Below, piece after piece: positions 14,917 to 19,441 of a stretch of 32,444 bases of DNA. The DNA lies in contig JABINZ010000096.1 of NCBI GenBank assembly GCA_018698135.1, positions 1 to 32,444 on the forward strand, read 5' to 3'. Position 1 is the stretch's first letter, and every line of letters starts with the position of its first letter. The notes under the pieces are model-generated. The model was not told where the DNA came from. It saw only the letters and a list, made by a program, of their open reading frames with translations, and searched no databases. Origin of the DNA: Bacteroidota bacterium (GTDB taxonomy: Bacteria; Bacteroidota; Bacteroidia; CAILMK01; JAAYUY01). A program made the position numbers and the translations under genes.

Positions 14917-15405
14917 ATGAATTATAAATTTTTGATTAAACAAGGTCCAACATTTCATGGATGGAATTCATTTTTTGGTGTGTTTATCATGCTGATTGGT
15001 GGTATCTTATTTTCAAATGTATTTGCTGATATGGGATTTGTATCTGTAATTCGTAAAGTTAGTGGGATTTTGGTTTTTGCCATTGGTTTACAGTTATTCC
15101 TTTTCATACAGGGTGTAATCCTTGATTCAAAATCAAAAAGATTGAAAATATATTACTTTCTTTTTTTTCGTTTAGGATATTGGATTGATATTTCAACTTT
15201 TGATTGTTTTGAGATTGAGAAATACGAAAGTGCTGAAACACGAGGTGTTGTAACTGCTTTTGCAACGGTTCGAACCAAATACTACGATCTCTACCTCACC
15301 AAAACTGGTCATAGTGATAGAATTCTTTTAAAATCTTGTGCCTCAATAGAATATGCAGAGGCTTTAAGGGATGAAATTGAAGCTTATTTAGAAATGAAGG
15401 GCTGA
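14917..15405 (+). CDS. Small two-TM membrane protein of unknown function
   Basis: A 162-residue protein I do not recognise. Two hydrophobic helices are predicted at about residues 17-37 (SFFGVFIMLIGGILFSNVF) and 46-69 (RKVSGILVFAIGLQLFLFIQ). A soluble C-terminal half (70-162) follows with alternating basic and hydrophobic strands (SKRLKIYYFLFFRLGYWIDI) and a final helix (EYAEALRDEIEAYLEMK). This layout resembles small proteins with a membrane anchor and a PH-like cytosolic domain, but no diagnostic motif is visible. It lies between the metK terminator and the palindromes preceding the DUF3857 genes, so it is probably a separate short transcript. Only weak promoter-like sequence (TTTG 14861-14864, TAAAATTT 14883-14890) is seen before it. 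The ATG at 14917 is the only sensible start. Confidence 0.7.
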   Translation: MNYKFLIKQGPTFHGWNSFFGVFIMLIGGILFSNVFADMGFVSVIRKVSGILVFAIGLQLFLFIQGVILDSKSKRLKIYYFLFFRLGYWIDISTFDCFEIEKYESAETRGVVTAFATVRTKYYDLYLTKTGHSDRILLKSCASIEYAEALRDEIEAYLEMKG

Positions 15406-15550: not shown

Positions 15551-17509
15551 ATGAAAAGCAACTATTTTCTCACGCACATATTTCTTCTGCTTTGTCTTTC
15601 ACTATTTTCTCTGAATGTTTATGCCAACGATTTTCCTGTTGTGTTTGGTGAAGTTCAGCATGCTGAGTTTACAGCTTCCGAGTTTGAGATAGAACAAAAA
15701 GCATCCGCAATTGTGTTGTGCGATTTTGGACAATGTGCAGTTACCGAAAATGGTCAGTCAGTTATTGTAACCAAGCATATACGGATTAAAATCCTTAAAA
15801 GCACCGGATATGATTGGGCAGATGTTGAAATCCCTATTTATGAGAGTATGAAATTGAAAGAGATTCAAGCATGTACATATAATCTTATTAAGGGTGAAAT
15901 TCAAAAAACGGAACTCAGTAAAAAAATGATACTTCACGAGGATTATCTGGATGGGATTGAGATTTTGAAATTTGCTTTTCCTAATATCAAAAGAGGATCA
16001 ATCATCGAATATCAATATTCATTCGAACTCTTCAGGATTTCCGGACTATGGTCTTGGACCTTTCCTAAAAGCATTCCTGTAAAGCATAGCGAGTTTTGGG
16101 TGCAATATCCGTTTGAGTTTAAGTATAAAGTAAATAAGACCGCAGAAAACCTGTTCTATCACAACGAGCTGATGTCTAATGAATGGTATTTTAACAAATT
16201 TGGTCCATCCATATTTCATCGGTTTATTGCAGTTTTTCAAAGTCCTTATGAAACAGAGCCTTATGTAAATAGCAAGTATAACTTTATGGCAGGTGTCGAA
16301 TTTCATTTAGATAATATTGATCTGCCAGGAGTTTCTTCAAGCCATTTTATCTATTCTTTTAATAAAATAAGTAAAGATCTAACTGAAAGCTTTTATTTTG
16401 GGAAAAAGCTCGGGTCAAAAAAGTTCATAAGAGATGCTGTTGCTGAAGTTGTTTCTTCCAGCGATAGCCAATTAGAGAAAATTGAAAAAATTCGGGATCA
16501 CTTAACAAAACGGTTAAGGTGGAATGGAGAAAACAGGATGACTACGAAAAAATCTCTTGCAAAAACGTATAGAGAGGGTGAAGGCTCATCTGCTGATATC
16601 AACCTACTGCTTATTCAATTTTTACAAGATGCAGGAGTGGATGCCTTTCCGCTTGTTCTTAGTACAAGAAGCAGGGGGACAATTGATCGGAATTTTGCAA
16701 AATCTGATAGATTGAATTATGTGCTTGCCTATGTTGAGACAAAATATGGTCACTTACTTTTGGATGCTACTGATAGGTTTTTACCCTATAATATGCTCCC
16801 TCGAAAATGTCTGAACGGTGAAGGCTGGTTGATACTTGATGTTAAAGGGGAATGGATTTCTTTAGGCGAAGATGAAAAAAACAGTATTTCTACACAAATT
16901 AAATTATCGATTGATGAGAATGAAAAGCTAAATGGATACTACAAAAGGAAATTCAAAGGTTATGATGCTGCAAGATTAAGAGAAAGAATATATTTGGATG
17001 GTGAGGAAAAACTTGAGCAATCGTATAAAGATTTTTTCGGGAATTGGGATATTCATGATTTCCAAATTCAAAACCCTGATAATCTGAATGAAGAAATAAT
17101 TGTTGAGTTTGCTTTTGAAACAGCAGATGATATTATTAATGCAAACAATTATAAATATATTAATCCTTTTTTGAAAAATGAAGGTATTAGCAATCCGTTT
17201 TCTGCTAAAGAAAGATATTCAGATATCAATTTTGCCTGTTTGCAAGAACATCAATATTTTATCGAATTGGAAATTCCAGAGAATTATAGCATTTATGATA
17301 TCCCAGAAAGTATGGTGAAGATTTTACCTGACAAGGGAGGACAGCTTTTGTTTAATGTTACCTCAATAAATAATAAAATTACAATTCTCCATAAGTTGAG
17401 AATAACAAACGTTAATATTCCTGTTGATCAATACCTTGGACTGAAAAAGCTATATCAATATTCCGCTGATAAACAGGCTCAAATGATTATTCTTGAAAAA
17501 ACCAATTAG
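15551..17509 (+). CDS. Secreted DUF3857 protein with degenerate transglutaminase domain
   Basis: A 652-residue exported protein. The signal peptide is MKSNYFLTHIFLLLCLSLFS plus LNVYAN. An N-terminal DUF3857-type beta domain (about 50-260) contains TKHIRIKILKSTGYDWADVEIP and FPNIKRGSIIEYQYSFEL. A transglutaminase-like core follows (about 300-415), then a C-terminal beta region. The catalytic positions are lost. Where the paralogue downstream has YGDCKAL this one has EGSSADI (Cys to Ser347), and its NHA is NYV (His to Tyr390); Asp405 (LLLDATD) remains. It should therefore not act as a thiol enzyme, and a binding or scaffold role in the envelope is more likely. Similar degenerate members exist in other Bacteroidota. 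It ends 15 bp before the intact paralogue. No known pathway is assigned. Confidence 0.85.
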   Translation: MKSNYFLTHIFLLLCLSLFSLNVYANDFPVVFGEVQHAEFTASEFEIEQKASAIVLCDFGQCAVTENGQSVIVTKHIRIKILKSTGYDWADVEIPIYESMKLKEIQACTYNLIKGEIQKTELSKKMILHEDYLDGIEILKFAFPNIKRGSIIEYQYSFELFRISGLWSWTFPKSIPVKHSEFWVQYPFEFKYKVNKTAENLFYHNELMSNEWYFNKFGPSIFHRFIAVFQSPYETEPYVNSKYNFMAGVEFHLDNIDLPGVSSSHFIYSFNKISKDLTESFYFGKKLGSKKFIRDAVAEVVSSSDSQLEKIEKIRDHLTKRLRWNGENRMTTKKSLAKTYREGEGSSADINLLLIQFLQDAGVDAFPLVLSTRSRGTIDRNFAKSDRLNYVLAYVETKYGHLLLDATDRFLPYNMLPRKCLNGEGWLILDVKGEWISLGEDEKNSISTQIKLSIDENEKLNGYYKRKFKGYDAARLRERIYLDGEEKLEQSYKDFFGNWDIHDFQIQNPDNLNEEIIVEFAFETADDIINANNYKYINPFLKNEGISNPFSAKERYSDINFACLQEHQYFIELEIPENYSIYDIPESMVKILPDKGGQLLFNVTSINNKITILHKLRITNVNIPVDQYLGLKKLYQYSADKQAQMIILEKTN

Positions 17510-17524
17510 TATAAAATCTACACA

Positions 17525-19441
17525 ATGAAATACGTAAAACTCTTTTTGTTTCTATCAACTTTTCTACTCTCCATGCAGCTTTTAGCAGATAATAAATATG
17601 CTGTTAGTGAAATTCCAAGTCAATTATTAGAAAATGCTCATGCCGTTGTTCGCTATGATTATTTGAAGTTTGAAACAAAGGGTGATCATAAGGGCACAAA
17701 AACGTTTAAATATGCAATAACAATTTTGAATGAGAATGGTCTGTACTATACGCACGTTACTGTTCCTTACGATAAAGATCACAAGCTTGTTTCTTTTGTT
17801 GGAAAAATTTATGATGCAAATGGAACTTTAATTAAAGTGCTAGATGCAGCTGAAGACATCATTGATATGTCAAATATTCCATTTGGAACATTGTTTACAG
17901 ATAGTAGAGTGAAAATTGCAGACATGCTAGTAGCGAAATTTCCTTTTACAATAGAGGTTGAGTATATCCAAAAGGTGAAAGATTTGCTTTTTTTTCCAAC
18001 ATTTTTATTTCAACCAAATAACGAAACTTCTGTTGAACAATCCATTTTCGAAATTGTTATTCCTGAGGGGAGCTCTTTTCGTTTTAAAGAGTTCAATTTT
18101 GAAGGAAAATTAGATTCCATTAAAGAGGGTAAAGTACTTAGGTATATTTGGACAGAAACAAATCTGAATGCCTTTGAAGATGAAGTATATAGCTTTCCCT
18201 TTGATAAAAGTCTATCGCGAATTATTACAACTGCCAATACGGTAAATTTCTATAATTACATAGGAAAAATAAGTACGTGGGAAGAATTTGGCAAATGGGT
18301 GTCCAGAATAAATGATGTAGACAGAGAACTTCCACTGGAGCTAAAAACTGAAATAAATGAATTAGTTAAAAATGCCTCAACCGAACTGGAGAAGATTCAA
18401 CTGATTTATAAATATGTGCAGTCGAATACACGCTATGTGAACATTTCCTACAATATTGGTGGACTTCGACCACAGCCTCCATCTACCGTGTATCACCTTG
18501 GATATGGTGATTGTAAAGCATTAACCATGTATACCATGGAGTTATTAAAAATTACAGGCATAAAGTCTCACTATACTTTAGTTAAATCAGGAAATAGTAA
18601 TACTGATATTCATATTTCACTTCCATCCTTTCAATTTAATCACGCTATTCTCTGTGTCCCTCAAGCTGAAGATACAATTTGGCTTGAATGTACAAGTCAG
18701 ACTTTACCATTTGGCTTTTTAGGTAGCTTTACTGATGATCGTCATGTTTTACTCATAACAGAAAAAGGAGGTAAAATTGCAAAAACCTCATTTTATGGAG
18801 TTAATGACAATAAAAGGTTTATGACTGCAGAAATAGATTTACAAAAGAGTGGAGATGCGGATGCAAAGCTTTCTTTTCATTATAAAGGTTTAGAATATGA
18901 TAAAGTTGATTTTGATCAGCTTATTGAGGCAGGTAACAGTTATCAAAAGGATTGGCTATACGAAAGTCTTGAATTGTCATCTTTTACAATAACAGAACTT
19001 GAATTCAAAGAAGATAGGAAAACAGTTCCTGAAGCAAATATCACCATGAATCTGGATATAAAAAGCTTCCTCTCATCAGGCAGCCATACTATGTATTTTC
19101 GTCCTAACATGTCACTGAAGTGGTTAAATATTCCAGCAATTGATTCCAATAGAAAAACAAATCTGTATTTTGAAGACGATTATCAGGATTCAATTTCCAT
19201 TGTTTACACCGTTCCATATGGTGCTGAAATAGACTATTTGCCTAGTGATAAAAACGAAACATCGGATTTTGGAGAGTATCATTGTTACTTTGAAAGGCTA
19301 GAGAAAAAGGTGTTCAGATATACGCGTAGCTTGAAAATACATAAAGGAAATTATCCTCCTGAAAAGTTTAATGAATATGTTGCTTTTGTCCGAAAAGTAG
19401 TTAAAGCTGATAAGGAACTTGTTATCTTAAAAAAGACATAA
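17525..19441 (+). CDS. Secreted DUF3857/transglutaminase-like protein, triad intact
   Basis: A 638-residue exported protein. The signal peptide ends ...FLLSMQLLA (cleavage after about residue 21). The DUF3857-like beta domain (about 40-240) contains TKTFKYAITILNENGLYYTHV and KFPFTIEVEYIQKV. The transglutaminase-like core (about 285-395) contains YVQSNTRYVNISYNIGG, then Cys330 in GYGDCKALTM, His373 in FNHAIL, and an acidic residue at Glu388 (WLECT, where the family usually has Asp). A C-terminal beta-rich region follows. Members of this superfamily act as proteases, transglutaminases or amidases; the substrate here is unknown. It lies 15 bp after the degenerate paralogue, in the same transcript, which suggests that the two proteins act together in the periplasm or at the surface. 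It converges with the GNAT-like gene. Confidence 0.88.
   Translation: MKYVKLFLFLSTFLLSMQLLADNKYAVSEIPSQLLENAHAVVRYDYLKFETKGDHKGTKTFKYAITILNENGLYYTHVTVPYDKDHKLVSFVGKIYDANGTLIKVLDAAEDIIDMSNIPFGTLFTDSRVKIADMLVAKFPFTIEVEYIQKVKDLLFFPTFLFQPNNETSVEQSIFEIVIPEGSSFRFKEFNFEGKLDSIKEGKVLRYIWTETNLNAFEDEVYSFPFDKSLSRIITTANTVNFYNYIGKISTWEEFGKWVSRINDVDRELPLELKTEINELVKNASTELEKIQLIYKYVQSNTRYVNISYNIGGLRPQPPSTVYHLGYGDCKALTMYTMELLKITGIKSHYTLVKSGNSNTDIHISLPSFQFNHAILCVPQAEDTIWLECTSQTLPFGFLGSFTDDRHVLLITEKGGKIAKTSFYGVNDNKRFMTAEIDLQKSGDADAKLSFHYKGLEYDKVDFDQLIEAGNSYQKDWLYESLELSSFTITELEFKEDRKTVPEANITMNLDIKSFLSSGSHTMYFRPNMSLKWLNIPAIDSNRKTNLYFEDDYQDSISIVYTVPYGAEIDYLPSDKNETSDFGEYHCYFERLEKKVFRYTRSLKIHKGNYPPEKFNEYVAFVRKVVKADKELVILKKT

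Follow-up and report, generated by a model that had tools for sequence, protein, structure and literature searches.

An inactive transglutaminase with seven membrane helices, RloB, has been described from the rlo operon of Pseudomonas (PMC12239564), and active-site variation has been described across papain-like families in passages that do not name DUF3857 (PMC10318531). Of two further papers, one places a DUF3857 gene upstream of lolA in Xanthomonas (PMC6341742) and the other includes structure 3kd4 among several fold matches for vasohibins (PMC4866520). We found no published function for DUF3857 proteins in the open-licence literature, and searches of it for pseudoenzymes and for tandem or catalytically dead transglutaminases in Bacteroidetes listed no report of intact and inactive DUF3857 genes in pairs. 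Here we describe such a pair, P0001 and P0002, encoded side by side in a 32,444-nucleotide stretch of Bacteroidota DNA (assembly GCA_018698135.1, contig JABINZ010000096.1; hereafter the window). The best explanation overall, to which we give a probability of roughly 60%, is that the pair forms one unit in which P0001 is the non-catalytic partner, perhaps an adaptor or scaffold, of P0002, a putative cysteine enzyme.

A catalytic site present in P0002 and absent from P0001

Both genes lie on the + strand. Gene A (15551..17509) encodes P0001, 652 amino acids long, and is followed after an intergenic gap of 15 bp (17510..17524) by gene B (17525..19441), which encodes the 638-amino-acid P0002. The sequence of P0002 holds a complete site of Cys330 (codon 18512..18514), His373 (18641..18643) and Glu388 (18686..18688), whereas P0001 has Ser347 (16589..16591), Tyr390 (adjoining Asn389, the two codons spanning 16715..16720) and Asp405 (16763..16765); by residue states, a Cys-His-acid triad is present in P0002 and absent from P0001. 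BLASTP, aligning 186 columns at 22% identity, pairs Tyr390 with His373 and Asp405 with Glu388 and puts Ser347 at Cys330 or one place off, and in profile-level alignments Ser347 falls on Cys330. To judge from these alignments, P0001 and P0002 are distant relatives. Both exceed the Pfam cut-off of 24.6 bits for DUF3857 (PF12969), P0001 with 28.2 and P0002 with 71. For Transglut_core (PF01841, cut-off 23), P0002 scores 23.1, a mere 0.1 bit above, and P0001 falls below with 16.6; DUF3858 stays below cut-off in both. Searches of NCBIfam and the Protein Data Bank (PDB) with the single P0001 and P0002 sequences gave no match.

We labelled proteins of the P0001 type A and those of the P0002 type B, and collected both in three sets. 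A search of 395 genomes of the class at E 1e-5 returned P0001 matches in 63 genomes and P0002 matches in 160, with the best three candidates per genome scored; 77 stretches from these matches, together with the window, gave a class set of 90 A and 59 B proteins, from which L136 (score below 80, neither type) was excluded. The named set, built from the 80 loci of named genomes that rank highest by B profile, comprises 80 B proteins and 97 A frames, 7 of 104 A frames having been excluded from residue counts as shorter than 450 amino acids. Beyond the class, 25 of the 26 genomes with a B match of E 1e-140 or better yielded 26 B proteins and 35 A frames; the genome left out, G467, has its match cut at a contig end. 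Two of these 35 frames are halves of one split gene, an extra A gene at L324 2867-4955 that is broken into frames of 371 and 320 amino acids beside a complete A-B pair. The class and named sets overlap by one locus, leaving 221 distinct A frames and 164 distinct B proteins.

Every distinct B protein keeps Cys and His (164 of 164), and 162 of 164 keep Glu. By set (class, named, outside the class), Cys330 and His373 are each kept in 59/59, 80/80 and 26/26, and Glu is found at position 388 in 57/59, 80/80 and 26/26, the two other class-set proteins having Asp. Immediately after Glu388 stands Cys389 (18689-18691), retained in 56 of 59 B proteins.

The A type presents the reverse picture. Cys and His occur together in 0 of 221 frames; Cys stands at the nucleophile place in just 3, with Phe, Tyr and Tyr at their His places. 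Residues at the nucleophile place of the 90 class-set A proteins are Ser (39), Val (17), Ala (9), Ile (8), Gly (5), Cys (1) and others; the His place has Tyr in 41 and His in 19, and the third place has Asp in 88. In the named set (n = 97), Cys occurs in 2, Tyr at the His place in 89 and Asp in all 97, and outside the class (n = 35) Cys is found in none and His is retained in 21. An intact triad elsewhere in P0001 was ruled out: no Cys column that might supply a substitute nucleophile reaches 30% among the 90 A proteins. The A type nevertheless has a pattern of its own, with G345 kept in 85 of the 90, N351 (16601..16603) in 87, S371 in 80, T372 in 78, R373 in 74, G376 in 88, N389 in 77 and D405 in 88, and 24 columns are retained in at least 90% of these proteins, although A is more variable than B in mean column identity (26% vs 37%). 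Because A frames lack the Cys-His combination throughout and B proteins keep both residues, the loss of the site in P0001 is not a local decay.

A preliminary description of the window, made from its letters alone, had called P0001 a pseudoenzyme on the strength of Ser347/Tyr390 where P0002 has Cys330/His373; these residues, Glu388 and the 15-bp spacing all read as given there. P0001 is almost certainly a pseudoenzyme, Cys being absent in 218 of the 221 A frames. The same description had singled out Glu388 as an oddity of the active copy; it is instead typical of the B type.

Linkage of the two gene types

A same-strand A gene directly adjoins 159 of the 164 distinct B genes. In the class set this holds for 58 of 59, in the orders AB (38), BA (8), AAB (6), BAA (5) and ABA (1). 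The named set has a directly adjacent A for 76 of 80 B genes; at L173 one gene stands between, and L175, L178 and L180 have none. All 26 B genes from outside the class adjoin an A. Gaps between neighbouring DUF3857 genes in the class set are 52 bp or less in 63 of 72 cases, a figure that includes overlaps, which may be overstated since each gene was taken to start at its earliest possible start codon; adjoining A and B genes are at most 821 bp apart. At the genome level, B was also found in 52 of the 55 genomes with A, and A in all 52 with B. A profile search of G093, one of the three A-only genomes, turned up an intact DUF3857 protein that belongs to a different tandem type (L299). With the best three candidates per genome scored, A genes outnumber B genes in 24 of 55 genomes and equal them in 31, and in no genome are they fewer.

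The surroundings of the pair vary, and a third conserved gene in the unit was ruled out, as any other flanking family occurs in 17 of 139 loci at most. Frames of roughly 1250 amino acids with DUF3857 (L138-L145, L147, L275, L276, L296, L303 and L305) were considered as A-B fusions and rejected: each has a single intact C-terminal module after a long repeat-like part, which reading by eye rather than a scan labelled TPR, and no DUF3857 partner gene lies in the stretches read. Close to the source genome the pair is rare. Among the 12 genomes of its order, the source genome alone has a match to P0001, which may reflect either transfer into that genome or loss in its relatives.

The two types also diverge in step. 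Across 46 one-to-one loci, the correlation between identities among A and identities among B is 0.894, where 1000 permutations reach 0.22 at most. For 29 of the 46, the locus closest by A is also the closest by B; under permutation the mean is 1.0 and the maximum 6. In five genomes there are two one-to-one pairs, the A proteins of a genome being 24-31% alike and its B proteins 28-36%; here the nearest locus agrees for A and B in 7 of 10 loci, and among the other three, the nearest loci of L066 and L097 are mutual neighbours and L070 differs. These genomes are better evidence than the correlation because their old pairs stayed unmixed. As the pair is kept side by side in many relatives, the dead copy looks like a standing partner of the enzyme, and on these sequence comparisons a functional partnership of P0001 with P0002 is very probable.

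Recurrence of mixed DUF3857 tandems

We then took a census of DUF3857 genes in 99 genomes of at least 90% completeness, drawn evenly from the class. DUF3857 was found in 37 of them, and 88 proteins were read around the matches, with L292 and L306 yielding no frame. Cys and His are both present in 45 of the 88 and not in the other 43. Of 31 adjacent same-strand runs, 26 consist of one intact and one inactive member, 3 of one intact and two inactive members, and 2 have no intact member; exactly one intact member is thus found in 29 of 31 tandems and two intact members in none. Among two-gene runs, 26 of 28 are mixed against 13.9 expected, a number reached in 0 of 20,000 shuffles. Stand-alone genes comprise 16 intact and 7 inactive ones, and G054 has one intact gene and one inactive gene on separate contigs (L289, L290). 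The preliminary description had seen one case of what is a recurring DUF3857 tandem pattern.

Several tandem lineages, each with one intact and one inactive DUF3857 gene, can be told apart: the A/B type and types II, III and IV. Type II follows a gene for about 1100 amino acids at L148, L149, L153, L154 and L155, and in the two such genes that were scanned (L153 6899-10156 and L155 6716-10018) Pfam finds MORN_2 and TPR. Type III occurs at another site in the source genome (L157) and in two others of its family (L158, L159). The inactive members of type IV are longer. In a quick maximum-likelihood tree built without the catalytic columns, every label forms one side of a branch, with support of 72 for intact II, 97 for inactive II and 99-100 for the others. 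The grouping of intact II with intact IV (100) and that of inactive II with inactive IV (100) mirror one another, and a single origin of all inactive types has a P value of 0.061 in the approximately unbiased (AU) test.

The type III tandem of the source genome, which lies outside the window at L157 4953-8782 (G000:C21), joins an intact member with a Cys-His-Asp site to an inactive relative of 3kd4 (E 4.7e-52); 3' of it are genes for FtsY, a RimO/MiaB-type radical SAM protein, TilS and a C1-like peptidase. The only solved relative that we found, 3kd4, matches both the A and the B profile; in the profile alignment its residue at the nucleophile place is Pro. It groups with the inactive members and, from its sequence, looks inactive itself.

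Predicted fold and export of P0001

AlphaFold2 modelled P0001 with a predicted local distance difference test (pLDDT) score of 93.0 and a predicted template modelling (pTM) score of 0.88 from 90 alignment rows. The N-terminal beta domain, residues 45-263 (15683..16339, +), is delimited by Pfam, the model and fold comparison, and most resembles 6s7t chain E, an oligosaccharyltransferase subunit (Z 12.0, root-mean-square deviation (rmsd) 3.9, 179 residues), ahead of M1-type aminopeptidases (Z about 9). It is followed by a transglutaminase-like core, residues 268-440 (16352..16870, +; model and fold comparison), and by C-terminal beta domains. Compared over residues 268-444, the core matches human transglutaminase 3 (TG3), S. 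pyogenes TglA, LapG and 3isr with Z 9.8 to 10.5, the match to TG3 having Z 10.5 and rmsd 3.6 over 147 residues. Ser347 begins helix 347-360, Tyr390 begins strand 390-397, and Asp405 lies just past strand 400-404, positions that we take to be the Cys, His and Asp places of the transglutaminase fold. P0001 is therefore predicted to have a transglutaminase-like fold, although its Transglut_core score is below cut-off; a fold shared with known enzymes is no proof of function. The shared layout of DUF3857 plus core proposed in the preliminary description holds for DUF3857 in both proteins and, for the core of P0001, through the modelled fold.

Export was judged by a heuristic, a hydrophobic N-terminal stretch, rather than by a signal-peptide program. 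On this measure and by sequence, residues 1-25 of P0001 (15551..15625, +), which include the only N-terminal hydrophobic helix of the model (3-24), and residues 1-21 of P0002 (17525..17587, +) are signal-peptide-like. Hydrophobic N-termini recur in 82 of 90 A and 52 of 59 B proteins of the class set, in which a lipobox-like motif is rare (3/90 and 3/59). The signal peptides claimed earlier for both proteins accordingly stand as Sec-like hydrophobic N-termini, and both products would be exported.

Within the window, a 162-amino-acid protein with hydrophobic stretches and no Pfam family above cut-off is encoded 5' of the pair on the same strand (14917-15405), and the other neighbour is a GNAT protein. 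Promoter and terminator patterns around the gene pair were none above chance.

A proposed two-part envelope enzyme and its alternatives

We infer a mechanism from the anatomy of the pair and its evolution. P0001 and P0002 would act in the cell envelope as one functional unit, with P0002 as its catalytic member, a putative transglutaminase-like Cys-His-Glu peptidase, amidase or transamidase that performs thiol chemistry on a substrate there. P0001 would be a long-standing non-catalytic relative that has kept the fold and residues around the former active site (G345, N351, S371, T372, G376, N389 and D405) without a conserved nucleophile, and this region may bind the same substrate, or the enzyme. 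Its likeliest task would be to bind substrate or hold it to P0002, with a pure on/off regulator less likely; we put forward an adaptor rather than a regulator only tentatively, at somewhat less than even odds. Because one intact gene comes with one or more dead ones, the latter may be interchangeable adaptors around one catalyst.

Whether the two proteins touch is evenly balanced. The preliminary description had suggested a complex of the co-expressed pair in which one subunit regulates or positions the other, and of this suggestion the linked, unit-like behaviour is borne out; the genes do not occur independently in most genomes, and B was always accompanied by A in the genomes counted, A by B in all but three. 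The structural part fared less well. In the window, P0001, its stop, the 15-bp gap and P0002 share one reading frame, and the same holds at 22 other loci; together these loci supplied paired rows for a linked AlphaFold2 run on P0001 residues 26-652 and P0002 residues 1-536 (last 102 residues omitted). With 63 alignment rows (23 paired, 20 A and 20 B) and P0002 so shortened, it reached pTM 0.56 and pLDDT 89.2: the halves fold and are given no confident mutual placement, so the model neither supports nor excludes a P0001-P0002 complex. Several further observations weigh against a strict unit. In the class set, 20 of 90 A genes have no adjoining B, and profile searches of two genomes, G142 and G301, gave only the A gene itself and no B. 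The B genes that lack a directly adjacent A are 4 of 80 in the named set and, in the class set, 1 of 59. In the census, L127 is a run of two inactive members without an intact one (the other run with no intact member, L284, includes a frame cut at the end of the fetched stretch), and common ancestry alone explains some of the matched divergence. The linked model, the A genes without an adjoining B and the two genomes with A alone would also fit two proteins that serve the same process and are co-expressed without contact, A proteins being free binding proteins whose old cleft, with its conserved residues, holds a peptide or glycan. That every B genome also gave A, that divergence is matched one to one with old pairs left unmixed and that adjacency is kept in both gene orders make this arrangement unlikely but not negligible.

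The remaining explanations concern P0001 itself. A proteins might be enzymes of altered chemistry, with for example a Ser-His-Asp or Ser-Asn-Asp site. Ser-His-Asp does occur in 24 of 221 A frames (13, 1 and 10 by set), which could represent a changed rather than a dead site; Asp405 is nearly invariant, and a study of papain-like enzymes describes DUF1839 as a family that retains Ser or Thr at the nucleophile place (PMC10318531). Against this, 51 of the 90 class-set A proteins lack Ser there, with Val, Ala, Ile and Gly common, and Tyr takes the His place in P0001 as in 41/90 and 89/97 A proteins, and we regard altered chemistry as improbable. A decaying duplicate without function is more improbable still. 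The greater variability of A and the one A gene split into two frames (L324) would fit it, but such decay is already contradicted by the breadth of conservation: long open A frames persist across genomes of several classes, 24 columns hold in at least 90% of the 90 class-set A proteins, and the fold of P0001 is confidently predicted.

A non-catalytic P0001 acting as one unit with the P0002 enzyme remains the preferred reading, and it may extend further. Inactive forms make up nearly half of the census proteins (43 of 88). Across their phylum, Bacteroidota could conceivably possess a class of exported two-part transglutaminase-like enzymes, each a catalytic subunit with one or several dead relatives bound to it that provide substrate specificity; the arrangement would have arisen several times or from a single ancient duplication transmitted as a unit. 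This generalization is speculative and less likely than not. If DUF3857 proteins act as intact and dead pairs, tests on single proteins, and the 3kd4 structure, capture half of a system. The pairs would also offer a natural series on how a dead enzyme turns into a lasting subunit, with several lineages, at least one dead partner per intact gene and rare stand-alone cases.

Relation to known systems

The enzymes that share the core fold of P0001, human TG3, S. pyogenes TglA, LapG and 3isr, are active, as is described for some of them in PMC10318531, and P0002 carries a Cys-His-acid site as they do. The likeness is limited to the core, however; P0001 lacks the Cys and His, and the acid of P0002 is Glu. 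Over the whole chain P0001 most resembles 3kd4, which is Parabacteroides distasonis BDI_1141, deposited in the PDB as a 'putative protease' (Z 20.4, rmsd 4.5, 484 residues). The two differ in sequence, at about 12% identity, and the near relative of 3kd4 in the source genome is the inactive L157 member. RloB is membrane-bound and encoded beside aspartic protease and ATP-grasp genes (PMC12239564), whereas P0001 has no such membrane part and sits beside an intact relative of its own family; with no seven membrane helices in its model and no ATP-grasp neighbour, P0001 does not belong to the RloB type. Tandem types II, III and IV have adjacent intact and inactive genes just as the A/B type does, and they form separate clades in the tree; type II, unlike A/B, often follows a MORN_2/TPR gene.

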